DNA of 33,494 nt from Cyanobium sp. (GCA_007135755.1 SLIG01000126.1:1-33494), one strand, 5' to 3'. Positions 5,701-26,882 are shown, counted from the first letter of the stretch. Numbers and translations: made by a program. The notes: generated by a model not told the origin, from the letters alone.

Positions 5701-5794
5701 TGGCCTGGTGGGGAGGCTCCAGCAGGTGGGTGCGTCCGGTCATGGCCCGGGTGATCAGCGCTTCTAGTCCCGGCTCGCTGGTGTCGGTGGGCAT
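2753..5794 (-). CDS. hsdR: Type I restriction enzyme R subunit (ORF can extend to 5842; [20 protein letters not shown] at 5794 is the more likely start)
   Basis: Nuclease-like motif [15 protein letters not shown], Walker [22 protein letters not shown] box [12 protein letters not shown]2 helicase motifs ([31 protein letters not shown]). Confidence 0.95.
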
Positions 5795-5891
5795 GGGGCC
5801 GGGTGGTTGTGGCTGGCCTGGGGCCAGTCTGGGGCACGCCATTGGCTTGTGCCGTTCGGGAGCTCTGCTATGGGCTTTGCTAACTGCTCTG

Positions 5892-7594
5892 CTAATCGCC
5901 GGCTATGGAGCCGCCCTTAGTAGAGTCCTCGGCTGCCGCCCTGAGGATCCATCGTGCGCCCTCCAGGGTGCCAATCCGCTCGATTCGACCAGCGCGGCGC
6001 AGCTCCTGCATCAGGTTCTGAACCTTTCTGAGCTTCTGCTCTTCGCTCAAACGCTCAGGCAGCTTGGGCAGCAGGAGGGCATCCACCTCCTTGCGGGCCA
6101 CGGGGCCGTGCTGGCGGACGAGTTTGAGGATCAGGTCGAGGTAGTACTGCTTCTCGAAGCCGCTCTCGCGGATGTGGCGGGCTGTTTCGCCCGTGGCTCG
6201 GGCCATGGCGGCCGAGACGATCAGATGGGGGAACCGGCCCTCCACCAACCGCTGCTTCTTGAGCTGCTGGTGCTCGTCGCGGCTGATCGGGAGGCCCTTT
6301 TGGATGCGGTCGAGCAGGATCACCTGTGTGAGGGAGAGGTCGGGCTGCTGCATCAGCAGCCGTGTGTAGCGCTCATCGAGGATGCGGCCGGGAATGGTGA
6401 CCTGCACCCGATCCGAGCCGCTGAGGTCGTAGTCGGGCAGGGGGAAGGAGCGGCGTCGCTGGGTCTCGAACATGCGCTTGATGCCGCCGCCCTGGGTGTC
6501 GATCAGGTTGAGTTCCACCATGGCGTCCGCCAGCATGGGGTTGCGATAGAGCTCCTGAGGGGCGTCCTGCTCGATCACGGTTCGGATCGTGCCGGGGAGA
6601 AAGTCGCCCACGTTGGTGATCAACACGCGGTCGGGAAACTCCACCACGGTGATGCGGCCATGGCGGCCGTAGTCCTGATGGGCAATAGCGTTGTGGAGGG
6701 CTTCGCGCAGCACCCAGGGGTCGTACTGGCTGAGTTCCTGCGGGAAGAGCGTGCCACTCGGCAAGGCGCGCACCGTGAGGTTGCGCAGGCGTTGCAACAG
6801 CTGATCACCGGCCAACAGAAACGGAGGGCCGATGTGGGCGTAATCGAGTTCGTGGTTGTCGGCGTCCTTGAGGATCCAGGACACCTTGGCCACGGCCGGC
6901 GATAGCAGCGTGGCGGCCTCAGACCGGCCCAGAAGCAGAACAGCGGTGTGGGTGATTGCCCCCGGCGCAGCAGCCGGGCCTTATTGAGGAAGGTGCGGTC
7001 GTCCCAGGTGGTGAGCTCCTGGGCCTGCAGGGGATGTTTGATCTGAAACTGCTCGCGGGCCTTGGCGATGGCCTCGGGATCGAGATCCGCCAGGCTGGCG
7101 CCGTCGCAGACGATGGCAGACCAGTCGACACCATGAGACCAGAGCCGGCGCGCTTTTTCCGGGTGATTGGCGAGCTTGGTCTTGCTGGTGCCGGCACGGC
7201 AATAGCCTTGCCCCTGAAACTCCACGGGCCGCCCCCGGGCGGGGCCAACCGCGAGCAGAGCAACCCTGCCATCGGGGTGCTCGAGGCGGTGAGGCTCGAT
7301 TCCGGGGTTGGGCTGCAGATGGGCGGCCAGCCAGGGCAGCAGATCCTGATTGCCCTTGGCTTTGGCGATGTAAGGATCGAATCGAGTGCCGACCACGGCG
7401 TGGCTGGCATCCTCGATGCCAAAGATCAGATAGCCGCGGGGCTGGTTCAGTAAGGCAGATTCATTGGCCAGGGCGGAGAGGTATTCGCCGATCTCCTGGG
7501 GATCTGCATTGTTGTGCTTGAACTCCAGCCACTCGGTTTCTTTGGGCAGCCCGCGTAGGCGATCAACAAGGGAAATGAGCGCTTTCTCGTTCAT
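5892..7594 (-). pseudogene. AlbA_2 (Schlafen-like) DNA-binding plus GHKL-type ATPase protein, split by an apparent single-nt frameshift near 6959-6963
   Basis: N-terminal half in ORF 6620-7594 (ETEWLEFKHNNADPQEIGEYLSALANESALLNQPRGYLIFGIED, AlbA_2-like). C-terminal half in ORF 5892-6893 (DPWVLREALHNAIAHQDYGRHGRITVVEFPDRVLITNVG, HATPase_c_4-like). Restoring one nt at the C5 run gives continuous RRGAITHTAVLLLGRSEAATLLSPAVAKVSWILKDADNHELDY. Could be a sequencing error rather than a true pseudogene. Confidence 0.75.
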
Positions 7595-9009
7595 GGCAGC
7601 TCGGAATCCACTTCTTCGTCGGGCTCGAGTTCTTCGATCTCGTCGCCCGGCTCGCCGGCACCCAAGGGCTCGATTTCCTCCGGCAGCCCCGCCGCCGCCT
7701 GCCGCACATCAAGATTGCCAGTGGCCACATCGGCGATTAAACGTGTGCGGTATTCGCGGAGGAGGGTGATTTCGCGCTCTGTGTCAGCAATGGCTCTACC
7801 GAGATGCTGGGTTTCACCGTCAATAAAAGAAAGAATCTGTTGCTGTTCTTGGATCTTAGGCAGCAGCAATGGGAACGCCTTGAGTGTCGTGCTGTTGGTT
7901 GAAGCTAGATTGGTCGTTTTTTTCGCGGTTATTTGAAAATAACCCCGCCCATGTGCCGAACCCATAAGGGCCACCAAAAAGCCAGGGTGCAGACCACTAC
8001 TGCATCGGACAGCGAACACATGGTTCTGATGTAGGCAGCCATCAAGCTGCCCGGACCACAGGCACCCCCGCCCCAGCTTGTCGATATCGCCGCCTTCAGT
8101 CATCAAAACGTCGCCATGCATCAGAGTCGAGCGCCTGGCCTCCACTTCAGGCACAGCGACATGTTTTACGTTCCGCAGATCAAGACGATCGGACTGAACA
8201 TTGGCCACCCGAAGATATGGATATAGCGAGATTGGGGTCGACCCGTAATCCTTGCCGAGCGTGATTCCGGTTTGCACTGTGGCAAGGTCTTTAAGCCTTC
8301 GCACCTCCCAGTGCTGCGGAATATCCCCCAGCCAGGGAATGCCAGAATCCTTGAGCGGCACGGAGGGATCCAGTCCCAGTGTCACGGCGCGATGAATGAT
8401 GGCCTGCTTCTGCTCATTCAGCAGGGCGATGATCCTGCGTTTTTCCCGGATGGTGCGATCCAGGCGGTTGGTGGCCCAGGTGAGGAAGCGAACAATGGCG
8501 TTCTGTTCCTCAGTCGGTGGGCAGGGAGTGGGAATCTGTTTGAACTGATCCCAATAGAGACGGTTTCTGTCCTTGACAATGCCTCGCGAGAATGCATCTA
8601 TCTCTGCTAGGTACTCATCTGTCCGAAATAGCGATGCAAAGTAAGCAGGATTCACATTGGGCAAAGGCTTGGCCACCACATAGGCAGGGCTCACCAGGCC
8701 GTCAACCGGTGCAATCCCGGCTGCCCCTTGCCACATCCTCATCATGTTGTAGACGTAGTCCCCTTTGGCAGCGCATTTGTATTTCGCCTTATCGCTCATG
8801 ACTTGCTTGCGCTTTGATGATCCGAACTCGCGGATCCGCACCCCCGTTCTCAGAGAAACCTCAAGAATGGGCAAATCAGGCTCGCCAACGGCGGTGCGCT
8901 GCTGAAACAGGCTGCCATTGCGTTTGATCTCCCAATGCGCCGGAATGTGCCCCAGCCATGCCAATCCGGAGACCTTGGTCTCCGGATACGGCTTCAGATC
9001 CTCAATCAC
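7591..9009 (-). CDS. hsdS: Type I restriction-modification specificity (S) subunit
   Basis: Two target-recognition-domain starts (LAWLGHIPAHWEIKRNGSLF and IPWLGDIPQHWEVRRLKDLATVQTG), each followed by a coiled-coil spacer (EEQNAIVRFLTWATNRLDRTIREKRRIIALLNEQKQAIIHRAVT; IQEQQQILSFIDGETQHLGRAIADTEREITLLREYRTRLIADVATG). 4-bp overlaps with both neighbours. Confidence 0.95.
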   Translation of the reverse strand: MIEDLKPYPETKVSGLAWLGHIPAHWEIKRNGSLFQQRTAVGEPDLPILEVSLRTGVRIREFGSSKRKQVMSDKAKYKCAAKGDYVYNMMRMWQGAAGIAPVDGLVSPAYVVAKPLPNVNPAYFASLFRTDEYLAEIDAFSRGIVKDRNRLYWDQFKQIPTPCPPTEEQNAIVRFLTWATNRLDRTIREKRRIIALLNEQKQAIIHRAVTLGLDPSVPLKDSGIPWLGDIPQHWEVRRLKDLATVQTGITLGKDYGSTPISLYPYLRVANVQSDRLDLRNVKHVAVPEVEARRSTLMHGDVLMTEGGDIDKLGRGCLWSGQLDGCLHQNHVFAVRCSSGLHPGFLVALMGSAHGRGYFQITAKKTTNLASTNSTTLKAFPLLLPKIQEQQQILSFIDGETQHLGRAIADTEREITLLREYRTRLIADVATGNLDVRQAAAGLPEEIEPLGAGEPGDEIEELEPDEEVDSELP

Positions 9010-9389
9010 GCCTCCTCCTCCGCAGGCCCGGCCTGCCAGCCTCTTGTCACAGCGAAGTCGCGTAGGCGTTTGCTGATGGCCTTGCGCTGTCCTGTGGTTT
9101 TGCCGACAAAACTCACAGACACATGCTCTGGATCAGGAACACCGTCGGCAATCACAAGCAGAAATTCGCCAGCACATTCGTCCACTGTGAGGCCCATCAC
9201 GCCGATGGAAGCCAGGCCACGGGGCCCCGTGTGTCGCTTCCAGGCGGCTTCCGCCGTGATGAGGCTGCCGTCGTCGAACGACAGAAGATCCTGGTCTTTC
9301 GGTGTGGGTCGGAAAGCCTGGCTGCCGGGTTGGCCGCGAACCATGAACGAAGGATGAATCTGCCGCCAGAGAGGAGTTTCGGGATTCAT
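9006..9389 (-). CDS. Uncharacterised 127-aa protein embedded in the hsd operon
   Basis: Complete ORF with 4-bp ATGA-type overlaps with hsdS (9009/9006) and with the 386-aa ORF (9389/9386). Confidence 0.8.
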   Translation of the reverse strand: MNPETPLWRQIHPSFMVRGQPGSQAFRPTPKDQDLLSFDDGSLITAEAAWKRHTGPRGLASIGVMGLTVDECAGEFLLVIADGVPDPEHVSVSFVGKTTGQRKAISKRLRDFAVTRGWQAGPAEEEA

Positions 9390-10546
9390 ATCACCCCGGC
9401 CTCCTGGCTATCTGCGCGGAGGTTGCCGCCATCTGCCAGAACAGCTTCCAGCTTCTTACCCAGTGCTTGCAGCTTTTCAGCGTCGTGGAGGGGCACGGTG
9501 TCTTCTTCAACCGTATTGCGATCCAGATCCATGGCGTGCCACTGCACCGTATTGCTGCCTGGCACGAACTCAATTGAAAGATCGAGCCGCCCGATCAACC
9601 ACTCGGCTTCCACGCCTCCCTCCGGCGTGGGGTATAGCCTGGGGAACTGCTCGCCACGTAGGTGGCTCTCAAGCCAGGCGCTGATCTGGTCCAGCAGTTG
9701 ACCAGATGGAGGCACCCCCTGCCCATCGAGCCAGCCAGCCGGCAGCTGCCTGAGTTGCTCAATCTGGACGATGGGATCGAGGGGATCCAGCAGTTCAATC
9801 GAATCGGCTTCCTCCAGGCGCAGGAGCTGTTGGCTGGTATCCAACATGCCGATTCCACTGATCAGGGCCCAGCGTTCTCCGAAATCACCCACCCGCACAT
9901 CCCTCAGATCCGCTACCTGTTGATCGTTGATCACGCAAAGGATCACACGGCCATCCTTCAGCTCAATGGGCATCAGGTGATCCCTTGGACGCACATCAAC
10001 CACCTTGGCAACAACTTCTATCTCTTCCGTGAGTGGCTTGCTTCCTGGGCGGCTGAGCAAGAGCTCCCGGCGGATCTCCCTGGTGAGCCGTACTTCTACA
10101 CTCTTCGTAGAAGCCATGCGGATGCCTTCATCTTGGTGCAACCCTCGGCCGAATTTCTCCACGTAGGGCCAGGCGGTATCGGGCAGCGAGGGAGGAGGCC
10201 CCTGCCTTTGCTCCTGTACGTGGGCCAGAACTTCCAAAAAGCGATCGCAGGCCGAGCGTGCCCGTTGCATACGCGGGTCACAACCTTCCAGAAGGGCGTC
10301 GTCTGTGATCAGGGCCACTTCCGCAACAAAGCTCCCACCGCGGGTGCTCAGGTGAAGTTCCAGTTGTCCACTGAAGCCTCGGGGAATGCGCTGGCGGTTT
10401 GGATGGCTCTGTTTGTAGTCGCTCTTGGCGATTTCCAGAATGATCCCTTGGAGTGCCTCCAGGTCACGCAGAAGGGCAAAGGGAAGGGTCTGATTGCGAA
10501 AACGCCTGCCTTCGAAGTGGGGCTCAAGCAGGATCTCTCTGCTCAT
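9386..10546 (-). CDS. Uncharacterised 386-aa protein embedded in the hsd operon
   Basis: Complete ORF (MSREILLEPHFEGRRFRNQTLPFALLRDLEALQG...), overlaps its downstream neighbour by 4 bp. No domain recognised by eye. Confidence 0.8.
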   Translation of the reverse strand: MSREILLEPHFEGRRFRNQTLPFALLRDLEALQGIILEIAKSDYKQSHPNRQRIPRGFSGQLELHLSTRGGSFVAEVALITDDALLEGCDPRMQRARSACDRFLEVLAHVQEQRQGPPPSLPDTAWPYVEKFGRGLHQDEGIRMASTKSVEVRLTREIRRELLLSRPGSKPLTEEIEVVAKVVDVRPRDHLMPIELKDGRVILCVINDQQVADLRDVRVGDFGERWALISGIGMLDTSQQLLRLEEADSIELLDPLDPIVQIEQLRQLPAGWLDGQGVPPSGQLLDQISAWLESHLRGEQFPRLYPTPEGGVEAEWLIGRLDLSIEFVPGSNTVQWHAMDLDRNTVEEDTVPLHDAEKLQALGKKLEAVLADGGNLRADSQEAGVI

Positions 10547-10674
10547 GATTCATCTCTGGCGAGCGGTGCGCCGGCATCCATCATGGCTCTCAATTCGCCC
10601 ATGGTAATGGCTACCTTCACTAAGGGCTGCCCAAAGGTCACATACCCATCGCTGCCTTTCCTATGGCCACCCAA
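10543..10674 (-). CDS. Candidate small protein of 43 aa, not in the supplied ORF track
   Basis: TTG codon directly after the hsdM TGA stop (10675-10677). Reads LGGHRKGSDGYVTFGQPLVKVAITMGELRAMMDAGAPLARDES* and its TGA overlaps the ATG of the 386-aa ORF (ATGA, 10543-10546). An internal ATG (MGELRAMMDAGAPLARDES) is an alternative start. Confidence 0.5.
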   Translation of the reverse strand: MGGHRKGSDGYVTFGQPLVKVAITMGELRAMMDAGAPLARDES

Positions 10675-12975
10675 TCACCCCGCCCCCACCAGCAACCCAT
10701 CGAGCAGCCCCAGGGCCTCCTGCTCGATCGCGCGGATGTCGGCGGCGATCTCGGCTAGGGAGCGCAGTGGCTTGGGTTTGTAGAAGTGGCGCGTGAAGCT
10801 CACTTCGTAGCCAACTTTGGTGGCTTCGGCGTTGATCCAGGCATCTGGCGTGTAGGGCAGCACCTCGCGGCGGATGAAGGCCTCGATGCCACCCTCCTCC
10901 AGCAATGGCACCTGTTCGCTGTCGCGCAGGTCCACGTCCGGCTCGTAGTCCACCACGCAGGCCTTGCCGCCGATCTCGGCTTCGTACCGGCCATGTAGCG
11001 GATCTGCTTCAACCTTGCTTGGTTTGTACATCTTGGCGATCACCGGTGGTGCATCCTCCTCCCGCCAGCTGGTTTCCTTCAGCAGCGGCTTCAGATCGGT
11101 TGCCGTCAACTTGATGCCCTTCAGCTTCAGGCCCTTGCGTACCTCGGCACGGAAGTGGTTGTGATCGGTGAACAGCTCATCGCCGAACAGCTCCCGCAGC
11201 GCCTCAGCGGCAGCGACCAGCTGCTCATCCCGCTGCCAGGTGGCGGCATCCAGCAGCTTCTTGCGCCGTTTCTCAGGGAGCACCCGCTTCGGCGACGCGT
11301 CGCCCTCCTCCTCGTCGCCTGCATCCTCGGCTCCCCAGTCGTCGAGGAAAGCCTCCAGCCGGGGCCGCAACGCGGTGAACTCCGTCACCAGCCCATCGCC
11401 GAACTCCTCCAAGGCCGCTTCCCGGATCTCCCGGTCGCCCGAGGCGGTGCGAAGAGCCGTGATCGCGGCTGGGGTGATGCGGCTGTGCAGCCGCAGCGGT
11501 CGCTCCACCGTCACCTTCCAGTAGCCAAAGGCCTCATTGGCGAACACCTTGGACTGTTCGCTCTCCTCCATAGTGTTGTAAGCGACCATCACTCGCTCGA
11601 TGTCCGCAAGGCCCAGCTCGCAGTTCTTCTTGCCCAAGTTCTTGCGCAGGGGTTGGCTCCAGCCGCTGGCATCGATCAGCTGCACCTTGCTCTGCCGTTC
11701 GGGGGTTTTGCGGTTGCTCAGAAGCCACACGTAGGTGGCGATGCCCGTGTTGTAGAAAAGATTGAGGGGCAGGGCCACGATCGCTTCCACCCAGTCGTTC
11801 TCGAACAGCCAACGGCGGATGTTGCTCTCGCCCGAGCCCGCGTCGCCTGTGAACAGCGACGATCCGTTGTGCACCTGGGCGATGCGGCTGCCAAGGGGTG
11901 AATCATGATTCATCTTGCTGGTCATGTTTGCCAGAAACAGCATCTGGCCATCGCTGGAGCGCGTCACCAACGACAGCAGCTCATCACGGTGGTTCACCTG
12001 GAAGCGCGGATCCTTCATCTCCTTCTTGCCACCCATGGCATCGAGATCCTTCTTCCAGCTCTTGCCATAGGGCGGATTGGAGAGCATGAAATCGAAGACG
12101 CGTGCTGGGAAGGCGTCGTGCGACAGGGTCGACCATTCAGCCCCGCCCACGATGTTGTCGGCGTTCTCGCCCTCCCCCTTGAGCAGCATGTCGGCCTTAC
12201 AGACCGCATAGGTTTCGGGGTTGATCTCTTGGCCATAGAGGTGGGTCACCACCTGCTCGCCATGGCCTGAGGCCAGCTCCCGCAGCGTTTCATCGGCCAC
12301 CGTGAGCATGCCGCCGGTGCCGCAGGCGCCGTCGTAGAGCAAATAGCTGCCGCTCTTCACCTGGTCGGCGATCGGCCGAAAGATCAGGTTGCTCATCAGC
12401 CGCACTGCGTCGCGCGGTGTCCAGTGCTCGCCGGCTTCTTCGTTGTTGTCTTCATTGAATCGGCGCACCAGCTCCTCGAACACTGTGCCCATGGCGTGGT
12501 TGTCGAGCGCAGCCGGGCTCAGATCGATCTGGGGATCAAGGAATTTGCCGATCAGCGTGCCGAGCGAATCCGAGCGCGACAGGGTAGGGATGTGATTCCG
12601 GAACTTGAAGTTCTCGAGCACGTCCTGCACGTTGTCGCTGAAGCCTTCCAAGTAAGCCTCGAAATCGGCCCGCAGCTTCTGCTCACTGCCACGCGTGGTG
12701 AGGTCGCGCAGCACGAAGGGCGACACGTTGTAGAAGGCCTGGCCTGCCGCTGCCCGCAGGGCCGCGTCCTGCTCCTTGATCTGGGCGGCGTCGAGCTTCT
12801 GCTTGGCCTCCAGCACCCTAGGCTTGGTGGGCTCCAGCACCGCATCCAGCCGCCGCAGTACGCACATTGGCAGGATCACATCCGGATACTTGCCCCGCCG
12901 GAAAAGATCGCGCAGCACGTCGTCGGCGATGCCCCACAGGAATGACACGATCCTGTTGTGGGTGGCCTGGTCCAT
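10675..12975 (-). CDS. hsdM: Type I restriction-modification DNA methyltransferase (M) subunit (ORF can extend to 12999; MDQATHNRIVSFLWG at 12975 is the more likely start)
   Basis: SAM-binding motif LYDGACGTGGML, catalytic motif FMLSNPPYGKSW, HsdM N-terminal domain (IVSFLWGIADDVLRDLFRRGKYPDVILPMCVLRRLD). Confidence 0.96.
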   Translation of the reverse strand: MDQATHNRIVSFLWGIADDVLRDLFRRGKYPDVILPMCVLRRLDAVLEPTKPRVLEAKQKLDAAQIKEQDAALRAAAGQAFYNVSPFVLRDLTTRGSEQKLRADFEAYLEGFSDNVQDVLENFKFRNHIPTLSRSDSLGTLIGKFLDPQIDLSPAALDNHAMGTVFEELVRRFNEDNNEEAGEHWTPRDAVRLMSNLIFRPIADQVKSGSYLLYDGACGTGGMLTVADETLRELASGHGEQVVTHLYGQEINPETYAVCKADMLLKGEGENADNIVGGAEWSTLSHDAFPARVFDFMLSNPPYGKSWKKDLDAMGGKKEMKDPRFQVNHRDELLSLVTRSSDGQMLFLANMTSKMNHDSPLGSRIAQVHNGSSLFTGDAGSGESNIRRWLFENDWVEAIVALPLNLFYNTGIATYVWLLSNRKTPERQSKVQLIDASGWSQPLRKNLGKKNCELGLADIERVMVAYNTMEESEQSKVFANEAFGYWKVTVERPLRLHSRITPAAITALRTASGDREIREAALEEFGDGLVTEFTALRPRLEAFLDDWGAEDAGDEEEGDASPKRVLPEKRRKKLLDAATWQRDEQLVAAAEALRELFGDELFTDHNHFRAEVRKGLKLKGIKLTATDLKPLLKETSWREEDAPPVIAKMYKPSKVEADPLHGRYEAEIGGKACVVDYEPDVDLRDSEQVPLLEEGGIEAFIRREVLPYTPDAWINAEATKVGYEVSFTRHFYKPKPLRSLAEIAADIRAIEQEALGLLDGLLVGAG

Positions 12976-13015
12976 GGGGTGGTGTGTGTGGCTCAGCACT
13001 CACCGGCCACCGTAG

Positions 13016-16342: not shown

Positions 16343-16463
16343 GGCACCTGGGCGGTGGCCGCAGGTTAGGAACGGCCTTCTACCCGGCAGCCGGCACCTG
16401 GACCAACCGCGTCCCTGTGGCAGCGGTGACGCGCGGCCGTGCTGCGCTGGGCTGATTCAGGAA

Positions 16464-16508
16464 GTCCGAGTGTTGCGTCGGACACAGGCCGGGTGGCTGC
16501 CCGCCACC
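16464..16508. promoter_or_regulatory. Two adjacent inverted repeats upstream of the carotenoid-oxygenase operon
   Basis: GTCCGA-(8 nt)-TCGGAC at 16464-16483 and GGTGGC-TGCCC-GCCACC at 16492-16508, ending about 30 bp before the GTG start at 16540. Confidence 0.3.
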
Positions 16509-16539
16509 AGGATCGGCCGGTTGAACCTGGGGAAAGCCT

Positions 16540-19020
16540 GTGGACCCGCATCACCCACAGCCCCAGTCCAGCCCGCTGGCACCGCCGCTGCCGGTTCCCT
16601 TCCCGGCTTCGATCGGACTGCTCCGGCGCAAGCGGCTCAAGGATGTGACGCTCCATGTGCTCGAGGGGGTGCTACCGGACGACCTGCACGGCCATGCCTT
16701 TTTCATGGGCCCCGGTGGCTTTCTGAACAGCAAGCCGCAGGGAGCCGATGGTCTGATCCATCCTTCCGCCGACGGCACGCCGCTGTTCAACGGCGATCCG
16801 CTGCTGCACCGCCTCGATTTCGGCGGCGGCAAGGTGAAGATCACCAGCCGGATTCCCAGGACGCCCTGCTTCTACACCGAACGGCACTTCCTCAGCAAGG
16901 CTGACAAGAAGCGCTACCCCTATCGCTATGCCAACCATGGGCTGGCGCGCCTCTCCTTCCAACTGGGTTTCCGCAATGAGGTGAACACGGCCGTGGTGCC
17001 GATGCGCTTCAACAAGGCCGAGGGCAATCGGCTGATCATCACCTGGGATGCGGGGCGTCCCTTCGAGATCGATCCCTTGAGCCTAGAGATCGCCACGGCC
17101 GTGGGTTTCAATCAAGAATGGCGGGAATGGATCCCCCTGCCACTGCCCTTCGGCATCGTCAACACAGCCGCCCATCCGGCCTTCGATCCCCATCCGGCCC
17201 CGGAGGCGGCCGTTTCCGATGGAGGGGGCGCGCGGCTGTTCAGCCTCAACTACGGCAAATCGATCGGCACGGCGCTGCATCCGATCCGGAAACGCTTTGC
17301 GGATGCCCCCTTCGACCGAAAGGATGCTGATCTGCAGGCCGATTTCGATGAGCTGATCACGCTGGCGGAGCGCCTGCTCGGTGGGGCCCGCCGTTTGTTG
17401 CGGCTGATCCTCTGGCTGGAGAAACGCCTTCACCCCTGGCTGGGGCATTCGCTCCGGGGTGGCCTGCGCGGGCTGCTCCGTCCGAGCCGTGCCGTTCTTG
17501 GCTCTGCTGTCGCCGCACCAACCGTCGGCAAGCGCCATGTGGCGTCTGAACTGCTGGCCCTGCTGGAGGAGCAGCTGGAAGAGGGGGCGCAGAAGACCAC
17601 CGACCACGTGAAGGAACTGCTGCGCTTGCTGAAGGTGGCGCGTGGGCTGCTCGCCGATGCCGACAAGATGGCCGATTTTGTTGATCTGATCAGCTGGGAT
17701 GGCCAGCAACAGCAGCTGCAGAAGTGGGCCGTGCGCGTGGAGGATGGCAGTGGCAGCAGCGATGGATCCCCGCGCATCCTGCAGAGCATGCACCAGATGG
17801 GGGTGACGCAGGACTACGTGATCCTGATGGACACCGTGTTCAAGCTCGGTGTCGAGCAGTTGCTCACCGCTCCCTCGCCGGAGTACCCGGCCGTGGAGCG
17901 GGCGCTGCGAAACCTGCTGGATTTTCGCCAGAGTGATTATACGGTTCTCTATATCATCAGCCGCTGTGATCTGCGTTCGGATCGAAAGAAGGTGACAGCC
18001 CGCCGGGTGAAGATTCCCCGTGGCACAGCGCATTTCCTGGTGGATTACGACAATCCAGGCGGCCAGATCACCTTGCATTGTGCCCACAACATCGGCTGGG
18101 ATGCCGCGGAGTGGAATCGTCCCTTTGACGACTATGACAACGCTCCCTTCCCCGGCTTTTCTCAGGGCACCTTCCCCGGTGTCGTGGGCATGGCCACCGG
18201 CAGCACCGACATCAACGTGCTGGGTCGCTACGTGGTGGATGGGAAAACCGGAATTATGGACGAAAGCAAAACGATGCTGGCGGAGGATCCCGGCAGGGAT
18301 CTCACCTGGATGCTGGCGCTGTGCGCCTGGTGCCAACCCGATGGTGTCACCCCGCCGCCAAAGATCGAGCACATCTTCTGGAATGGCTGGGGCAGCCATG
18401 GCGACCTGCTTCCCACCTACATCGAGCGCCTCTACGCCCCCGCCGGTCCGCGCACCTTTACGGTGGAGGAGGCCGCCGAAGTGGCCCGCCGCGGCTTGCC
18501 CGCCACGCTGGTGCGGTTGGATACGGCCAGCATGGAAATTGCCGATCACTATGTCTTTCCGGCTGGCCGCTTCGGCAATTCCGTGCAGTTTCTGCCAACC
18601 AGTCAGTCCACACCCGGTGGCTGTGAGGGCTATCTGCTGTGTGTGGTGAACGGCAGTGATGACCCAACCCACAGTGAATTCTGGTTGTTTGATGCTGCTC
18701 AGCTTTCGGCCGGCCCCCTCTGCCGCCTTGGCCATCCCAGGCTGAAAGTGGGGATGACGATTCATTCCACCTGGGTGCCGGAGATCGCCCAGCGCACGGC
18801 CACCTACAACGTGCCGGTCAAAGAAGACTATGATCAAAGGTTTCAACACATCGAGAGCATGAAACAGAACCCCGAAATGCGCAAGAAATCAGATAGACGT
18901 AAGAAAACCAAGACAGCTGATCCCCGGCAGTTGTTCGAGCAGTACGTCTATCCTCATTTCCCTGACATCTCCGACTCCTCAGATACCTCAGCCACGTCGC
19001 ATCCGCAGACCCTGCTTTGA
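16540..19020 (+). CDS. Carotenoid oxygenase (RPE65/CCD family), long 826-aa form
   Basis: GTG start. Four His-containing signatures of the family: AHPAFDPHP, MHQMGVTQDYVIL, LHCAHNIGWDAAEW, IHSTWVPEI; also FNGDPLLHRLDF near the N-terminus. Confidence 0.9.
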   Translation: MDPHHPQPQSSPLAPPLPVPFPASIGLLRRKRLKDVTLHVLEGVLPDDLHGHAFFMGPGGFLNSKPQGADGLIHPSADGTPLFNGDPLLHRLDFGGGKVKITSRIPRTPCFYTERHFLSKADKKRYPYRYANHGLARLSFQLGFRNEVNTAVVPMRFNKAEGNRLIITWDAGRPFEIDPLSLEIATAVGFNQEWREWIPLPLPFGIVNTAAHPAFDPHPAPEAAVSDGGGARLFSLNYGKSIGTALHPIRKRFADAPFDRKDADLQADFDELITLAERLLGGARRLLRLILWLEKRLHPWLGHSLRGGLRGLLRPSRAVLGSAVAAPTVGKRHVASELLALLEEQLEEGAQKTTDHVKELLRLLKVARGLLADADKMADFVDLISWDGQQQQLQKWAVRVEDGSGSSDGSPRILQSMHQMGVTQDYVILMDTVFKLGVEQLLTAPSPEYPAVERALRNLLDFRQSDYTVLYIISRCDLRSDRKKVTARRVKIPRGTAHFLVDYDNPGGQITLHCAHNIGWDAAEWNRPFDDYDNAPFPGFSQGTFPGVVGMATGSTDINVLGRYVVDGKTGIMDESKTMLAEDPGRDLTWMLALCAWCQPDGVTPPPKIEHIFWNGWGSHGDLLPTYIERLYAPAGPRTFTVEEAAEVARRGLPATLVRLDTASMEIADHYVFPAGRFGNSVQFLPTSQSTPGGCEGYLLCVVNGSDDPTHSEFWLFDAAQLSAGPLCRLGHPRLKVGMTIHSTWVPEIAQRTATYNVPVKEDYDQRFQHIESMKQNPEMRKKSDRRKKTKTADPRQLFEQYVYPHFPDISDSSDTSATSHPQTLL

Positions 19021-21086
19021 TGCCCAAGCAGCCGCCTTTCCCCCGCTCGATGCTGCGGGCCAGCGCCGCCGAACTCACCCACGAGAAGCTGGAGGTGGTG
19101 GAGGGCGAGATCCCCGCCGAGCTGCACGGGCATCTGTTCCTGATCGCGCCGGTGGGTTCGGTGAGCTCCGGCGGCCTGCCCAACCCAGATGACAGCCATG
19201 TGTGGAACGGCAACGGGCTGATCCATCGCTTCGATCTCAACCAGGACAGCGGGACGATCCGACTCACCACCCGCCTGGCGCGCACGCCCTGCTTCTGGGC
19301 CGATCTCGCCACCCGGCCAGGCAGCGCCGCTGCCGGGCTCGGCTTCAGCGACTGGGGCATGTCGCGCTTCTCGGTGCACCTGGGCATGCGCAATCAGCTC
19401 AACACCGCCTTCGTGCCGATGCGCTTCGCGGCCGCCGAGCCCACCCGCCTGCTGCTCACCTTCGACGGTGGCCGCCCCTACGAGATCGATCCGGTGCGCC
19501 TGGCGGTGGTGACACCGGTGGGCGGCAACGAGGAGTGGCGGCCCGGTGCCGAGCTGCCCCTGCCCTTCCCGCCGGTGCTGAGCACGGCCCACCCGGTGTT
19601 CGATCCGGCCACGGCCACGCTGTTCACGGTGAATTACGGGCGCTCCACCGGCAACTTCCTCGACACCATTCCGTTGGTGGATCGGCTCGACCGGTTGGCC
19701 GGGGCGCTGGCCCAGGTGCTTCAGCCCCTGGCAACGCTGATGGGAGTGCTGCTGGCCCCCGTGCGCTCGCTGCTGGGCCGGCGGCTGAAGGTGGCCGACT
19801 TCGTGCATCTGCTGGCCTGGGACGGCCGGGGATCCCTGCGCCGCTGGTCGCTGGTGGACGACAAGGGCCAGCCCCTGCGCATCGACCAGACCATGCACCA
19901 GATCGGTCTGAGCCGCGATTACCTGGTGCTGGCGGACACCTCGCTCAAGTTCGGGCTGGAGCAGCTGCTCTCCCGCCCCTTTCGCCGCTTCCCGGCCCTG
20001 AACCGGCTGCTGCGCCGTCTGCTCACCCGTCCCCAGAAGCCGGACACCACCCTCTACGTGGTGCGCCGGGCTGATCTCAACCGGGAGGCCGCGGAGGCTC
20101 CGGAAGCTCCAGCGGGTGAGCAGCGGGAGGGTCAGACGGTGGTGGCCCGGCGGCTGGTGATCCCTCTGGAGATCGGCCACTTCTTGGTGGACGAGGCCAA
20201 CCCCGACGGGCGCATCACCCTCCACGCCGCCCACGAGTGCGCCACCGATGTGTCCGAATGGGTGCGACCGGAGGATGTGTCCGCCCTGGATGGCCGGCCC
20301 CTCGATCCGGCGCTGCGGGGCATGATCGCCGTCGGCGCCATGGATCTGGGCCGCCTGGGGCGCTATGAGATCGACGGGGAGACCGGTGCGTTGCTGGGGT
20401 CGCGCATCCTGCACGACCACCGCCTCACCTGGGGGATCGGCCTCTACACCTGCCGCCGGGACGTGGATCCGTCCGCTGCGCCCGACGGCCGCCTGTCGTC
20501 CATCTACTGGCAGTCCCTGGGGTTCCAGGCCGACCTGCTGCCGGAGTTCCTGCGGCGGCTCTATGCCGACTACCCCCACCGGCTGGTGCCGCTGCCGGAG
20601 CTGCTCAGCGGGCCCGACGCCGGCCCTGGCCGGCCCTCGGCGCTGTTCCGGGTGGACACGGCCACGATGACCATCGCCGATGCCTACCCCTTCCCCCAGG
20701 AGCAGGTGGCGGGCGGGGAGTGGCGGAGCTGGGTGTGCAACTCCCCCCAGTTCGTGCCCCGGCCCAGGCCCGATGGGGTTCCCAACCCGGGGATCGATAC
20801 CGCCACCGATGGTTGGATTGTCTGCATCGCCATCAGCGAGCAGGCCAAACAGCTGTGGATCTTTGATGCGGCCGACCTGGCCCGCGGTCCCCTCTGCCGC
20901 CTGGCCCACCCGCGCTTCGATCCGGGCTACACCATCCACACCACCTGGCTGGAGCGCATCGAACCGCGCAGTTCTGACTACTGCATCGATGCACGGGTCG
21001 ACTATGGCCCCAGACTGGAGCACGTTCCGGACGCGGTGCGCGAGCTGTTCGAGCAGCACGTGTATCCCCGCGTCGATCCGTGCTGA
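19020..21086 (+). CDS. Carotenoid oxygenase (RPE65/CCD family), tandem divergent paralogue
   Basis: TGATG overlap with the upstream gene. WNGNGLIHRFDL, AHPVFDPAT, MHQIGLSRDYLVL, LHAAHECATDVSEW, IHTTWLERI. Confidence 0.92.
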   Translation: MPKQPPFPRSMLRASAAELTHEKLEVVEGEIPAELHGHLFLIAPVGSVSSGGLPNPDDSHVWNGNGLIHRFDLNQDSGTIRLTTRLARTPCFWADLATRPGSAAAGLGFSDWGMSRFSVHLGMRNQLNTAFVPMRFAAAEPTRLLLTFDGGRPYEIDPVRLAVVTPVGGNEEWRPGAELPLPFPPVLSTAHPVFDPATATLFTVNYGRSTGNFLDTIPLVDRLDRLAGALAQVLQPLATLMGVLLAPVRSLLGRRLKVADFVHLLAWDGRGSLRRWSLVDDKGQPLRIDQTMHQIGLSRDYLVLADTSLKFGLEQLLSRPFRRFPALNRLLRRLLTRPQKPDTTLYVVRRADLNREAAEAPEAPAGEQREGQTVVARRLVIPLEIGHFLVDEANPDGRITLHAAHECATDVSEWVRPEDVSALDGRPLDPALRGMIAVGAMDLGRLGRYEIDGETGALLGSRILHDHRLTWGIGLYTCRRDVDPSAAPDGRLSSIYWQSLGFQADLLPEFLRRLYADYPHRLVPLPELLSGPDAGPGRPSALFRVDTATMTIADAYPFPQEQVAGGEWRSWVCNSPQFVPRPRPDGVPNPGIDTATDGWIVCIAISEQAKQLWIFDAADLARGPLCRLAHPRFDPGYTIHTTWLERIEPRSSDYCIDARVDYGPRLEHVPDAVRELFEQHVYPRVDPC

Positions 21087-24000
21087 CGTCCCCTGGCTAC
21101 ACCCTGATCGAGACCCTCGACGAGGGGCCCTTCGCCCGGATGGTGCGGGTGCTGGATCAGCGCGACGGGCGGCTGGTGCTGCTGCGCATGCTGCGCCACG
21201 ACCACCCCAGCGCTGAGGCGATCGCCAGCCTGCAGCATGAGGCGGCCGTGTGCGAGGGCCTCGAGGCAGAGGCCACCCTGCCACTGCTGCGGCTGGAGCG
21301 GCACCAGGATCTGCCGGTGCTGGTGTTCGAAGACCCGGGCGGCCAGACCCTGAGCCGCCGGCGCCAGGAGTTCGCGGCTGATCGGGAGCGGTTGCTCGGC
21401 CTGATCGGGCACGCCGCCCGCGCTCTGGCCGCGCTGCACCGTCAGGGTCTTCTGCACAACAACCTCAGCCCCCGCTGCCTGCTGTTGGCGGAGGATGGCG
21501 CGGTGCGGCTGCTGGCGTTGGAGCAGGCGGCACCACTGGGCACCCCGCCGCCCCAGACCCCCGAGCAGCGGCCGCTCGAGGACCTCCTCCACCTCTCTCC
21601 GGAGGCCAGCGGACGGCTGCAGCGGACCCCGGACCGTCGCAGCGATCTCTACGCCCTCGGCATCTGCCTCTACGACCTGCTCACCGGCCGCACCCCCTTC
21701 GCCGCCAGCGATCCGATGGCGGTGATCCATGGCCACCTCGCCCGCTCTCCCGAACCGCCCCACCAGCTTGAGCCCGGGATTCCGGAAGCCCTCTCGGCCC
21801 TGGTGCTCAAGCTGCTGGCCAAGCAGCCCGAGGACCGCTACCAGACCATCCACGGTCTGCTGGCCGACCTGGGGGAGTGTTCCAGCCAGTGGCAGCGCCT
21901 GGGGCGGATCGAGCCCTTCGCCCTGGGCAGCGCCGACCGTGGCGATTGCCTGGTGATTCCCCAGCGGCTGTTCGGCCGTGCGACCGACCGCCAGCGCCTG
22001 CTGGTGCGGGTGGAACAGGCCCTGGCGGGGGCGGTGGCGATGGTGGGGCTCAGCGGGGCGGCCGGTGTCGGCAAATCGAGCCTGATCGCGTCGCTGCGGC
22101 CCGCCCTGCAGCACCGGCGCTGCCTGGTCGCGGAGGGAAAGTGCGATCAGCTGGGGCTGAACATCCCCTACGCGCCCCTGATCCAGTGCTTTTCGGCGCT
22201 GGTGCGTCAGGTGCTGAGCGAAGACGCGGACGCCTTGCAGGTGTGGCACCAGCGGCTGCAGGGCGCACTCGGGGGTGCGGCTCAGCTGCTGGTGGAGGTG
22301 CTGCCGGAACTCGGGCTGATCCTCGGGCCCCAGCCCCAGCCCGAACCGCTTCCCCCGCTGGAGGCCCAGAACCGCTTCCGCCAGGTGGTGCTGCGCTTCC
22401 TGGCGGTGTTCGCCCAGCCGGACCATCCCCTGGTGCTGGTGCTGGACGACCTCCAGTGGGCCGATCAGGGCTCCCTGGCCATCCTGCGGGAACTGCTGCT
22501 CCGGGAGGGCCTGGCGAATCTCCTGGTGATCGCGGCCTGGCGGGATCAGGAGCTGGGCCCGGCCCATCCGCTGCCGGCGATGCTGCAGCAGCTCGCCAGC
22601 CAGGCGGCGCGGCTGGAGACCATCCAGCTCCAGCCCCTGCAGGCGGACGATGTGAACCACCTGCTGGCGGCCTGCTTCGGCTGCCCGGCCGCCGAGTGCC
22701 GGGAACTGGCCCGACGGCTGCAGGACACCACCGGCGGCAACCCCTTCTTCATCAACCAGCTGCTGCAGAGCCTCTTCCGCGAGGGCCATGTGCGCTTCGA
22801 CGGCCAGCGCTGGGTCTGGGATCTGGAGAGCATCCGGGCCGCCACCTTCCCTGATGACGTGGTGAGCCTGGTGCTGGACGAACTGAAGCGCCTGCCGGCG
22901 CCCGTGCAGCGCACCCTCACCCTGGCCGCCTGCCTGGGCAACCGCTTCGACGCCACGGCCCTGGCGATGGTGGGCGGCCAGCCCGGTGCCACGGTTCGCC
23001 GCCATCTGGGGGCGGGCGAGGCGGCCAACCTGGTGGCCCCTCTGGTCAGCTCCGGTTCACCGGATTCGGCCTACCGCTTTCTGCACGACCGCATCCAGCA
23101 GGCGGCCTACGCGGCCCTCGCCGACGAGCGGGAGCGGGCGGCCATTCATCTGCGGGTGGGCCGGCGCATGCTGGCCGGCCGCGACGCCCTGGCCGAGGGG
23201 CAGCTCTTCGACCTGGTGGACCACCTCAACCGGGGTCGGCTGCTGATCGACGACCCTCAGGAGTGCCTGGAGCTAGCCGGCCTGAATCTGGAGGCCGCCC
23301 GCCGGGCCAAGGCCTCGGTGGCCTACGCCACCGCCCTCGCCTACCTCGAGCAGGGGGTGGACCTGCTGCCGCCCGATGGCTGGCGGGAGCACCACGGTCT
23401 CGCCTACGCCCTGCACAAAGACCTGCTGGAGTGCCAGTACCTCTGCGGGGCGATCGAGCCGGCCCAGGACACTGCCGCCGTCCTGCTGCGCCACGTGCGC
23501 GACCGGCTGCAGCTGGCCGAGGTGCAGGGTCTGCGGATGATTCTCTGCACGGCCCTCAACCGCATGGCCGAGGTACTGGAACTGGGCTACGCAGCCCTCC
23601 GCGAGCTGGGTCTGCCCATGCCTGCCGGCCCGGCCGCGGTGCAGCGGGCCCAGCGCCTGGAAACCTGGCGCATCCAGCAGCTGCTGCTGGGCCGCTCGAT
23701 CCCGGCGCTGGCCCAGCAGCCGCCGCTGCAGGACCCCCTGCAGCAGGCACGGCTGACCCTGATGGCCCAGATGATCCCGGCCCTGTACTACCTCGACATG
23801 GAGGCCAGCCATCTCTGCTACCTGCGGATGGCCCGGCTGTCGATGCAGCACGGCCATGCGCCGGTCACGGCCATGGCCTATCTCGGCCTCGGTCGCTTTC
23901 TCGGTGAAGGGCGGGGACGTTTCCTCCAGCGCCAGCAGTTCGGGCGGGTGGGCCTGCAGCTGGCGGAGCACTACGGCAGCCAGGCTCTGCTCTGCAAGGC

Positions 24001-26275
24001 CCATTTCCTCTATGGCGGCTTCATCCACGCCTGGAGTGACTCCGCCGTCGAGGCGACGAGCCACCTGCAGCGCGCCTTTGAGGCGGGGATGGCATCCGGC
24101 GATCTGGTGTGGGCCTGTTACGCCAACAACGTGCTGTGCATGCAGCTGGTGTTCCTGGGCCGCCCCTACGGCGAGATCGAAGCGGAGAGTCAACGCTGCC
24201 TCGACCATGCCCGGCAGGTGGGTGAGCACTACACCCCGGTGTTCTTCCTGATCACGCGACAGCTGGCGCGCTGCCTGCAGGGGCGTACCCGTGGCGCCAC
24301 CGATCTCAGTGACGCCGAGTTCGACGAGCTGGCGCAGCGGACGCTGCTGGAGCAGCGGCCCGAGTTCCGCGTCGCGCTGCACTGGTATCAGCTCTGCAAG
24401 ACGCAGGTGCTGCTGCAGGCCGGGGAGCACCGTCAGGCACTGGCGATGGTGCGTGCCGCCCGATCCACCCGTGCCGCCGCCTCAGGGTTGCTGCACGCGG
24501 CCGAGGATGACCTTCTGCAGGCCCTCTGTCTGGCGGCCGTGCTGCCGCAGGAAGGCGATCCCGCCCTGCGGCGGCTCCACCGCCAGGGCCTGCGCCGCCT
24601 GGGGCGCGACCTCGATGGCCGCGCCCGCCTCTGCCCCGCCAACTTCCGCCACCGTGCCCTGCTGGTGCAGGCCGAGACCGCCTGGGTGGACGGCAGGACC
24701 GCCCAGGCCCAGGCGCTCTACGGGCTGGCGATTCAGGCGGCCCTGGAGGCCGGTCATGAACCCATGGCCGCCTACGCCCATGAGCGGGCTGCGGCCCTGC
24801 ACCGCAGCCTCGGCGACCCGGTGGCCGCCCGCGCCCACGCCGAGGAGGCCCGCTACCGCCGGGAGCGGCTGGGGCAGCTGCGGGGCGCGGGCGAGCAGGC
24901 CGCCTCCCGCCAGCCCGTGAGCGGCCTGCTGGGCAGGAGCCTGGATCTGCACAGCCTGATCGAGTCGATGCAGGCACTCTCCAGGGAGATCCTGCTCGAC
25001 AGGCTGCTGGATCGGATCGTGGAGATCCTGCTGGCCAACGCCGGTGCCGAGCGGGTGGTGCTGATCCTGGATGCGGGCGAGCAGGCCCTGATCCAGGCCG
25101 AGGGAAGCGCCGACCCCCGGCAGGTGGAGGTGCTGCAGGCCCGGCCCCTGGCGGACAGCCACGATCTGCCGCTCTCGATCGTGCGGATGGTGCGCCGGCT
25201 GCGCCGGCCGGTGGTGCTCGCCGATGCGGCCGCCGAGGGTGAGTTCCGCCACGACCCGCGGGTGATGGCGGTCGGGCTGCGCTCGGTGCTCTGCCTGCCG
25301 CTCACCCTGCAGTCCCAGGTGCTGGGGGTGGTGTATTTGGAAAACAACCTGGCCAGCGACGTCTTCGGCAGCCTGCGCCTCGAGACCATCGAAATTCTCG
25401 GCACCCAGCTGGCCATCTCCCTGGAGAACGCCCGCCTCTATGGCGAGATGGCGCGGATCAACCGCTCCTACGGCCGCTTCATCCCCCACGAATTTCTGAG
25501 CTTTCTGGGCCGCGACAGCATCCTGGACGTGGAGCTCGGGGATCAGATCCTCAAGCGGATGACCGTGCTGTTCGCCGACATCCGCGATTTCACGGCGATC
25601 TCCGAGCGGCTGACGCCGAAGGAGAGCTTCGATTTCCTCAACGCCTACCTGCGGCGGGTGGGGCCGATCATCCGCGAACACAACGGCTTCATCGACAAGT
25701 ACATCGGCGATGCCGTGATGGCGCTGTTCCCCGGCAGTGCCGCCGACGCGGTGCGGGCGGCGCTGGCGATCCAGCGCGAGGTGGCGGCCTACAACAGGGA
25801 TCGCGGGGCTGTCGATGGAGCACCCCTGCGCATCGGCATCGGCATCCACACGGGTGATCTGATGCTCGGCACCGTCGGCGAGGAGGAGCGCATGGAGAGC
25901 ACCGTGATTTCCGATGCCGTCAACCTGGCCGACCGCGTCGAGGACCTCACCAGGATCTTCGGCTGCCGAATCGCGCTCACCGCCGACACCCTCGAGGACG
26001 TCACCGCTTCCCTGCCGGTGCAGGTCCGCTCCCTCGGGGATCTGCAGGTGCGGGGCAAGTCGATGCCGGTGAAGGTGCTCGAGCTGATCGACGACGAGGG
26101 CGACCCCGGTGGCTGCGCCTCCAGGCGGGCAACCCTGGAGTGGTTCGAGACGGGTGTGGAGGCGTTCCACACCGGCCGGTTCACGACCGCTGCCGAGGCG
26201 TTCGCAGCGGTGCTCCGGGAGGATCCCGAGGACACCGTGGCCGCGGAGTTCCTGCGTCGCTGCAGCGATGGCTGA
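21080..26275 (+). CDS. Multidomain signalling protein: degenerate Ser/Thr kinase - AAA ATPase - TPR-like middle - GAF - class III adenylate/guanylate cyclase - short TPR-like tail
   Basis: Kinase-like fold (RRSDLYALGICLYDLLTGRTPF) without catalytic motifs; Walker A SGAAGVGKSSLIASL and Walker B LVLVLDDLQWAD; GAF region 25000-25430; cyclase RMTVLFADIRDFTAISERL...FIDKYIGDAVMALFPG...STVISDAVNLADRVE. GTG start overlaps the preceding stop. Confidence 0.93.
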   Translation: MLTSPGYTLIETLDEGPFARMVRVLDQRDGRLVLLRMLRHDHPSAEAIASLQHEAAVCEGLEAEATLPLLRLERHQDLPVLVFEDPGGQTLSRRRQEFAADRERLLGLIGHAARALAALHRQGLLHNNLSPRCLLLAEDGAVRLLALEQAAPLGTPPPQTPEQRPLEDLLHLSPEASGRLQRTPDRRSDLYALGICLYDLLTGRTPFAASDPMAVIHGHLARSPEPPHQLEPGIPEALSALVLKLLAKQPEDRYQTIHGLLADLGECSSQWQRLGRIEPFALGSADRGDCLVIPQRLFGRATDRQRLLVRVEQALAGAVAMVGLSGAAGVGKSSLIASLRPALQHRRCLVAEGKCDQLGLNIPYAPLIQCFSALVRQVLSEDADALQVWHQRLQGALGGAAQLLVEVLPELGLILGPQPQPEPLPPLEAQNRFRQVVLRFLAVFAQPDHPLVLVLDDLQWADQGSLAILRELLLREGLANLLVIAAWRDQELGPAHPLPAMLQQLASQAARLETIQLQPLQADDVNHLLAACFGCPAAECRELARRLQDTTGGNPFFINQLLQSLFREGHVRFDGQRWVWDLESIRAATFPDDVVSLVLDELKRLPAPVQRTLTLAACLGNRFDATALAMVGGQPGATVRRHLGAGEAANLVAPLVSSGSPDSAYRFLHDRIQQAAYAALADERERAAIHLRVGRRMLAGRDALAEGQLFDLVDHLNRGRLLIDDPQECLELAGLNLEAARRAKASVAYATALAYLEQGVDLLPPDGWREHHGLAYALHKDLLECQYLCGAIEPAQDTAAVLLRHVRDRLQLAEVQGLRMILCTALNRMAEVLELGYAALRELGLPMPAGPAAVQRAQRLETWRIQQLLLGRSIPALAQQPPLQDPLQQARLTLMAQMIPALYYLDMEASHLCYLRMARLSMQHGHAPVTAMAYLGLGRFLGEGRGRFLQRQQFGRVGLQLAEHYGSQALLCKAHFLYGGFIHAWSDSAVEATSHLQRAFEAGMASGDLVWACYANNVLCMQLVFLGRPYGEIEAESQRCLDHARQVGEHYTPVFFLITRQLARCLQGRTRGATDLSDAEFDELAQRTLLEQRPEFRVALHWYQLCKTQVLLQAGEHRQALAMVRAARSTRAAASGLLHAAEDDLLQALCLAAVLPQEGDPALRRLHRQGLRRLGRDLDGRARLCPANFRHRALLVQAETAWVDGRTAQAQALYGLAIQAALEAGHEPMAAYAHERAAALHRSLGDPVAARAHAEEARYRRERLGQLRGAGEQAASRQPVSGLLGRSLDLHSLIESMQALSREILLDRLLDRIVEILLANAGAERVVLILDAGEQALIQAEGSADPRQVEVLQARPLADSHDLPLSIVRMVRRLRRPVVLADAAAEGEFRHDPRVMAVGLRSVLCLPLTLQSQVLGVVYLENNLASDVFGSLRLETIEILGTQLAISLENARLYGEMARINRSYGRFIPHEFLSFLGRDSILDVELGDQILKRMTVLFADIRDFTAISERLTPKESFDFLNAYLRRVGPIIREHNGFIDKYIGDAVMALFPGSAADAVRAALAIQREVAAYNRDRGAVDGAPLRIGIGIHTGDLMLGTVGEEERMESTVISDAVNLADRVEDLTRIFGCRIALTADTLEDVTASLPVQVRSLGDLQVRGKSMPVKVLELIDDEGDPGGCASRRATLEWFETGVEAFHTGRFTTAAEAFAAVLREDPEDTVAAEFLRRCSDG

Positions 26276-26882
26276 GGCGCTGCTGGATCAACTGCTCCCC
26301 GCCCTGCGCTCACCGCTGGGGGCCGTGGCTTTCGTGCCCCTCTACGCCCTCTGGGTGACGCTGCTGCTGCCGGGGGTGTGGGCCTCGATGCTGGCCGGGG
26401 CCCTCTACGGCCCCTGGTGGGGCAGCGTGGTGGTGCTGGTGGGGGCCAGCCTGGGGGCGGAGGCGGCCTTCCTGCTCGGCCGGGGCTGGTTGCGGGAGTG
26501 GGCCCGCCGGCGCCTGGCGGCGGCGCCCAAGCTGCAGGCGATCGAGCAGGCCGTGAGCCGCGAGGGCCTGCGGCTGGTGCTGCTCACCCGCCTGTCGCCG
26601 GCCTTTCCCTTCAGCCTGCTCAACCTCGCCTACGGCCTCAGCGAGGTGAGCCTGCGCGACTACACGATCGGCCTGGTGGGCATCGTGCCCGGAACGATCC
26701 TGTTCTGCAGCCTCGGTGCCCTGGCCGGTGACGTGGCCCGCTTCGGCGAGGTGCTCTCCGGCCAGGCCGATGCCGTCACCTGGACCCTGCGGATCGTGGG
26801 GGTTCTGGCCACGGCGGCCACGGTGGTGCTGGCGGGCCGGGCGGCGCGGCGGGCGCTTCAGGAGCCTGAAACGTCGGCCTGA
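26268..26882 (+). CDS. TVP38/TMEM64 (DedA-like, SNARE-associated/VTT) family membrane protein
   Basis: ATG overlaps the end of the cyclase gene. MLAGALYGPWWGSVVVLVGASLGAEAAFLLGRGWLREW...LTRLSPAFPFSLLNLAYGLSEVSLRDYTIGLVGIVPGTILFCSLG. Confidence 0.9.
   Translation: MAEALLDQLLPALRSPLGAVAFVPLYALWVTLLLPGVWASMLAGALYGPWWGSVVVLVGASLGAEAAFLLGRGWLREWARRRLAAAPKLQAIEQAVSREGLRLVLLTRLSPAFPFSLLNLAYGLSEVSLRDYTIGLVGIVPGTILFCSLGALAGDVARFGEVLSGQADAVTWTLRIVGVLATAATVVLAGRAARRALQEPETSA

Follow-up and report, generated by a model that had tools for sequence, protein, structure and literature searches.

Gene content of the locus

The window, by which we mean the whole stretch of 33,494 nucleotides that was analysed, is contig C65 of a 2.75-Mb Cyanobium genome. 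Four open reading frames on its plus strand were confirmed at 16540-19020, 19017/19020-21086, 21080-26275 and 26109/26268-26882. The first, with a GTG start, encodes CCD-A, a long carotenoid-oxygenase-fold protein of 826 aa, and the second (19020-21086) encodes CCD-B, a further long protein of this fold with 688-689 aa. The third encodes a protein of 1731 aa, here called the sensor, which comprises a degenerate kinase domain, an AAA_16 domain, a long linker, a GAF domain and a class III cyclase. The fourth (26268-26882) encodes a TVP38-like VTT protein.

These assignments were borne out by Pfam, in agreement with the preliminary description of two long RPE65/CCD-fold genes followed by a gene for a pseudokinase/AAA/GAF/nucleotide cyclase protein. 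The RPE65 family was matched by the two CCDs with E-values of 1e-33 and 4e-32, each match falling into two stretches that flank an insert. In the sensor the matches were to Pkinase (4e-16; 21098-21844), AAA_16 (1.5e-35; 21965-22531), GAF (1.5e-12; 24995-25423) and Guanylate_cyc (1.5e-15; 25553-26062), and the TVP38-like gene matched VTT (1.7e-25). The three junctions read CTTTGATGCCCA, TCCGTGCTGACG and GCGATGGCTGAGG, and every one is a true gene overlap; the overlaps previously placed at 19018-19022, 21080-21086 and 26268-26275 are all present in these letters. A short gene overlap is by itself weak evidence in a compact genome, and it is because the unit is conserved elsewhere that the three-gene arrangement goes beyond chance.

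Further upstream, the window holds a type I restriction-modification locus (2753-12999) in which Schlafen/AlbA-type genes lie between HsdR, HsdS and HsdM. The PPK2 and MscS genes stand between this locus and the cluster.

Extent of the block

The same site was located in relatives of the genus via the MscS gene to the left of the cluster. In G012 the MscS gene, the VTT gene and an ATPase gene are consecutive, with identities to the window of 92%, 98.5% and 95%, respectively, and both CCDs and the sensor are absent; the CCDs and sensor are likewise absent at that site in G004 and G006. Cyanobium sp. CH-040 (G005, locus L076) has the block at the same site as the window. Comparison of both flanks, including alignment with the empty site L271, gave an approximate extent of 16390-26267 for the block that is missing from the sister genomes, with the left boundary just downstream of 16345-16390 and the right boundary at the VTT start codon (~26267). 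Three sister Cyanobium genomes thus have MscS, VTT and ATPase in succession with none of the other three genes between them, so the block of three genes (~9.9 kb) was acquired or lost in one piece.

The unit is therefore three genes (16540-26275), and the site records the gain or loss of exactly these three. While the preliminary description had proposed a cluster of four, only its CCD-CCD-cyclase part stands; the TVP38-like gene, which adjoins MscS at the empty sites, is an ancestral neighbour outside the system and was rejected as a fourth member. Its overlap with the sensor stop codon is a boundary effect at the edge of the block.

Within the genus the block is patchy: of 13 genomes, two have long CCDs, and the kinase/AAA/GAF protein was found in both of these and in none of the five other genus genomes searched. 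Between two Cyanobium the sensor is 94% identical (window 21080-26275 compared with L036:13255-18450), as against ~77% for MscS and ~76% for CCD-A, and this high identity reflects either strong constraint or recent exchange.

The two long CCDs

Both CCDs have the propeller fold of the RPE65/CCD superfamily. AF2 models reached a mean pLDDT of 90.6 for CCD-B and 89.3 for CCD-A, and the best fold match in the PDB for both was Synechocystis ACO (E ~1e-20). In an alignment of 66 long CCDs, the four histidines of CCD-B that this alignment assigns as putative iron ligands (191, 293, 387 and 640) are kept in 65-66 rows, and a further pair, 402 and 405 in CCD-B numbering, is kept in 60 and 65 rows, respectively.

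The insert occupies one common place in both clades of the family and consists of helix. It spans ~135 residues in CCD-A (approximately residues 242-375; 17263-17664), where it was delimited from AF2 secondary structure and confidence and by insert comparison and lies outside the Pfam RPE65 match, and ~45 residues in CCD-B (approximately 210-255; 19647-19784), where AF2 and hydropathy indicate that it is partly hydrophobic. A helical insert is present at this single site in most long CCDs. It is large in the window-type members of clade A, varies widely in length and sequence, and is almost missing in a few clade A members (L130, L133).

The window genome has one canonical CCD elsewhere, with a family score of 417 bits, compared with 38-72 for pieces of the window CCDs. 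The window proteins did not reach the cut-offs of the NCBIfam equivalogs for characterised CCDs and lignostilbene dioxygenases (35-40 bits against 650-800), nor that of the model for carotenoid 13,14-cleaving enzymes (19 bits against 675). To judge by these scores the long CCDs lie far from characterised CCDs. Their nearest families cleave carotenoids, apocarotenoids or stilbenes, and stilbene-type substrates may also be considered. That these CCDs are active catalysts, and on what substrate they would act, is an inference.

In five loci (L142, L038, L140, L141, L146) the CCD genes are present as two or more open reading frames. The break in Thermonema (L142) lies near the helical insert; across these loci the junctions fall at differing places, and some resemble frameshifts or decay. 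Frameshift, decay or a naturally two-piece enzyme may each account for such genes.

The sensor and its cyclase

The preliminary description had called the sensor a pseudokinase, which is right for the window genome: the catalytic Lys, the HRD-type Asp and the DFG motif are all missing, the corresponding stretches reading VLLRML and HNNLSPRC. The kinase motifs are intact in relatives, e.g., L037, L038 and L077, and this combination of a degenerate domain in Cyanobium with intact ones in relatives suggests that the module probably does not depend on kinase activity here.

The cyclase retains its catalytic positions. In an alignment of its motifs FADIRDF, DKYIGD and STVISDAVNLADR with CyaB (3r5g) and 2w01, the catalytic metal Asp pair, the purine Lys/Thr and the transition-state Asn and Arg that mark a class III enzyme are all kept, and we take these residues to have their generally known roles in the window protein. 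The purine-specifying position is occupied by a Thr, which points to an adenylate rather than a guanylate cyclase, and the output of the window sensor is predicted to be cAMP.

The kinase-AAA-GAF core of cbSTKIII/HstK-type kinases is present in the sensor according to Pfam and to a core tree that includes free paralogues. Two features of that class are lacking in the window protein, namely intact Ser/Thr kinase motifs and a C-terminal His-kinase output, in place of which it carries Guanylate_cyc.

Linkage of long CCDs to signalling proteins in cyanobacteria

Loci were gathered by CCD sequence alone from 85,462 species genomes and 389 genomes of the class, 42 of the latter having a long CCD at E <= 1e-50. 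After removal of duplicates, 102 long CCDs in 90 distinct loci were classed by their nearest neighbours. A kinase/AAA/GAF sensor directly adjoins the long CCD in 44 of the 90 loci, and a signalling enzyme of some kind in 55. The remaining neighbours are SpoIIE (6 loci), cyclase-AAA_16 (4), cyclase (1), NB-ARC/WD40 (9), AAA_35 (3), FAD (1) and others (18), with 4 loci at contig edges. The 18 loci with other neighbours and the nine with NB-ARC/WD40 instead were counted against the reading of these genes as a module.

Searched genomes that have kinase/AAA/GAF proteins hold between 1 and ~27 of them, from which we estimate, in place of a measured control, that adjacency by chance would be expected at ~1%. 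Leaving out the four contig edges, 44 of 86 loci corresponds to a binomial probability of ~1e-64 at a chance rate of 1% and 1e-51 at 2%, figures that give the order of surprise only, because the loci are kin. The short flanks of 26 canonical-CCD loci contained no signalling gene; these loci are mostly from small picocyanobacterial genomes, and the control is weak since such genomes carry few signalling genes. That the CCDs are coupled to the cyclase protein, as had been noted in the window, is strongly supported by the conservation of the linkage in many other cyanobacteria. The search in other genomes for scattered genes, or for a cyclase situated elsewhere, left the coupling of the first three genes unrefuted. 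The further suggestion, that the coupling reflects one function, is itself only plausible.

Trees were built by quick searches under LG+G4 with SH-aLRT as the only support measure. The CCD tree has two clades, A, with the 826-aa protein of the window, and B, with that of 688-689 aa. Tandem pairs with A ahead of B are present in 11 loci (the window, L036, L077, L079, L086, L148, L091, L092, L132, L225 and L227), and in Synechococcus sp. RedBA-s the A and B genes lie at contig ends (L144, L078). Within the window group the trees of A, B and sensor have the same nesting, with L077 and L079 outermost, RedBA-s next and the two Cyanobium innermost, and this agreement fits joint inheritance.

Several other neighbourhoods were observed. 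An NB-ARC/WD40 neighbour replaces the kinase sensor in L039, L099, L118, L135, L139, L152, L233, L241 and L242, nearly all of them in one branch of clade A. In L037, L080, L081, L085, L087, L093 and L127 the order is sensor-CCD-FAD, the last being an FAD-dependent amine-oxidase/desaturase-like gene that weakly resembles HpnE and members of the CrtI family; L127 represents the sensor-CCD pair in Nostoc relatives. Secreted-looking proteins of ~850 aa stand beside some long CCDs (L131, L145, L153, L232, L243), and L124 has a related neighbour with a TPS secretion domain. L206 was rejected as a CCD-linked locus, as the single long CCD of its genome sits elsewhere.

Exchange of output domains

The CCD-adjacent sensors end in Guanylate_cyc, SpoIIE, GGDEF or AAA_35 domains, and in L084 and L114 in a His-kinase output, recognised by reading the H-box and ATPase motifs in the sequence. 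A sensor tree was calculated from 96 cores with the outputs trimmed, 44 of them CCD-linked and 52 unlinked, the unlinked ones coming mostly from two genomes. CCD linkage required 11 changes on this tree compared with 32 in shuffles, and well-supported branches force at least nine. One clade of 23 sensors is 100% CCD-linked (SH-aLRT 91 for the whole clade, 100 for 20 of its members) and contains five output types, i.e., cyclase, GGDEF, SpoIIE, histidine-kinase and AAA_35, with at least six changes between them. The window clade of six sensors, all CCD-linked, has three output types and at least two changes. A His-kinase output is found in 3 of the 44 CCD-linked sensors against 29 of the 52 unlinked ones.

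The outputs have been exchanged beside the CCD, and the cyclase was therefore rejected as the constant partner. Although correct for the window, the earlier naming of a cyclase as the partner proved too narrow, since five or more outputs can take its place or that of one another.

A counterpart in Bacteroidota

In Marivirga, Bernardetiaceae and Thermonema the neighbour of the long CCD combines approximately six hydrophobic segments with a coiled stretch and a SpoIIE domain, and a Cyclobacteriaceae genome has this membrane part joined to a class III cyclase. To judge by its architecture, this Bacteroidota partner is a membrane protein unrelated to the kinase/AAA/GAF sensor, and its output too has been swapped. 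The membrane domain occurs in 14 of 291 genomes of the order of Marivirga. Among all the copies fetched, the ten scoring >=276 bits adjoin a long CCD and the nine at <=160 bits do not; one of the ten, in Thermonema, was counted within a run of three copies around the CCD. Distant homologues of the membrane-SpoIIE protein that have no CCD neighbour were seen in L254-L262.

Interpretation of the module

We propose that the two CCDs and the kinase/AAA/GAF/cyclase protein work as a single enzyme-coupled signalling module with a constant input and interchangeable outputs, a reading to which we give a probability of about 0.5. The two paralogous non-heme-iron enzymes, acting jointly or in series, would work at the membrane, cleaving a carotenoid, or else a related polyene or alkene, by oxidation, and the AAA_16/GAF protein would read either their product or the depletion of the substrate. 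In the window genome the sensor would then drive its adenylate-cyclase domain to give a cAMP signal, and in other lineages the same input would be wired to a GGDEF, SpoIIE phosphatase, histidine-kinase or AAA_35 output. The ligand, for which the preliminary description had offered an apocarotenoid sensed by the GAF/AAA protein as an example, the domain that would sense it and the direction from CCD to sensor are the conjectural parts of this scheme. As the CCD is constant and the outputs are exchangeable, with two unrelated types of sensor, the simplest reading puts the CCD on the input side; the direction rests only on which part stays constant.

The same constancy bears on the opposite direction, in which the signalling protein would govern the CCDs as its effectors and its output would tune carotenoid cleavage, for instance under light or oxidative stress. 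Sharing an operon is compatible with either direction and the sensor-CCD-FAD arrangement looks metabolic; however, an effector enzyme common to all these loci should retain one kind of regulator, whereas here the chemistry of the output varies while the CCD stays, and we regard reverse control as unlikely. It is also rather doubtful that the CCDs are protein partners or ligand-binding co-receptors that release no diffusible product, their helical inserts docking on the sensor and the occupancy of the iron pocket being sensed. Such a complex would suit the overlapping genes, the constant A-B order and the insert at one site in most long CCDs, large as it is in window-type clade A, and the retention of iron ligands is no proof of turnover. 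On the other side, the inserts are variable and in two loci nearly missing, and the unrelated partners in Bacteroidota would require separate docking solutions.

A role in conflict or immunity appears improbable. STAND-type NTPases (AAA_16, NB-ARC/WD40, AAA_35) would here detect an invader, with the CCD or the cyclase as effector, and the CCD-adjacent AAA_16/NB-ARC proteins do resemble the STAND NTPases of conflict systems in multicellular bacteria (PMC7159879); in the window the type I restriction-modification locus lies ~3.5 kb away. However, a search of the known anti-phage systems in PADLOC-DB returned no match for either CCD, its matches to the sensor reflect kinase- and cyclase-domain similarity only, and the membrane-sensor architecture of the Bacteroidota partners does not favour such a role. 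Genomic coincidence, with a mobile block carrying functionally unrelated genes, would account for the patchy distribution in the genus and the clean boundary at the site, but it is very improbable given that the gene pair recurs across many cyanobacterial families, with the linkage changes forced on the sensor tree, and that a long CCD is paired with a different partner in another phylum. The canonical-CCD loci, mostly from picocyanobacteria with few signalling proteins, also stand against it.

Relation to known systems and significance

The window CCDs share the propeller fold and the four iron-binding histidines with Synechocystis ACO/Diox1 and the RPE65/CCD family. They differ from ACO/Diox1 in having only 12-16% identity in fold alignments, a length of 688-826 aa compared with ~490, the helical insert, the conserved His 402/405 and a co-encoded sensor. 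The catalytic domain of the cyclase is similar to the class III adenylate cyclases CyaB and 2w01, with the metal Asp and the Lys, Thr, Asn and Arg positions present, but it belongs to a protein that also has kinase-like, AAA_16 and GAF domains and whose gene follows those of two CCDs.

Lipophilic autoinducer pairs such as CqsA/CqsS share a general design in which the genes for enzyme and receptor stand side by side. The long CCDs and their sensors have the same stable gene linkage, and the Bacteroidota partner, with its approximately six hydrophobic segments and swapped output, is comparable to CqsS in design. Unlike in CqsA/CqsS, the enzyme has the fold of a CCD oxygenase, and in cyanobacteria the sensors are soluble proteins. 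CqsS has a six-helix domain to which a lipophilic ligand binds and which is able to drive a class III cyclase (PMC4821796). Among cyanobacterial proteins, a Ser/Thr kinase survey describes Anabaena Alr2258 as a Ser/Thr kinase-GAF-His kinase of the cbSTKIII/HstK type and Tery_2857 as a kinase-GAF-cyclase (PMC2176072). The window sensor has the kinase-AAA-GAF core in common with proteins of this type, from which it is set apart by its cyclase output and degenerate kinase.

Keyword searches of that survey and of a cyanobacterial CCD survey (PMC3299332) gave no mention of linkage to CCDs in the former or of CCD-sensor linkage in the latter. A linkage between CCDs and signalling proteins was not described in the literature searched, whose coverage is thin for subscription journals, so its novelty is unproven.

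The roles of bacterial CCDs have been described as not well established (PMC5133782). A CCD subfamily that stands beside output-swapped signalling proteins would make this role directly testable, and suggests an undescribed bacterial route from a lipid-derived molecule to a cell signal. More specifically, and with the odds somewhat against it, the long CCDs may belong to a dedicated form of bacterial signalling by apocarotenoids or related polyene-derived compounds, in which they would make the ligand and co-encoded proteins would read it, in cyanobacteria the soluble AAA/GAF sensors and in Bacteroidota the membrane receptors, and drive interchangeable outputs that include cAMP, c-di-GMP and phosphatase signalling. 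If this is true, apocarotenoid signalling, known in plants, extends to bacteria, and some of the numerous orphan kinase/AAA/GAF sensors in cyanobacteria would gain a candidate input, as would an unnamed membrane-sensor family of Bacteroidota.
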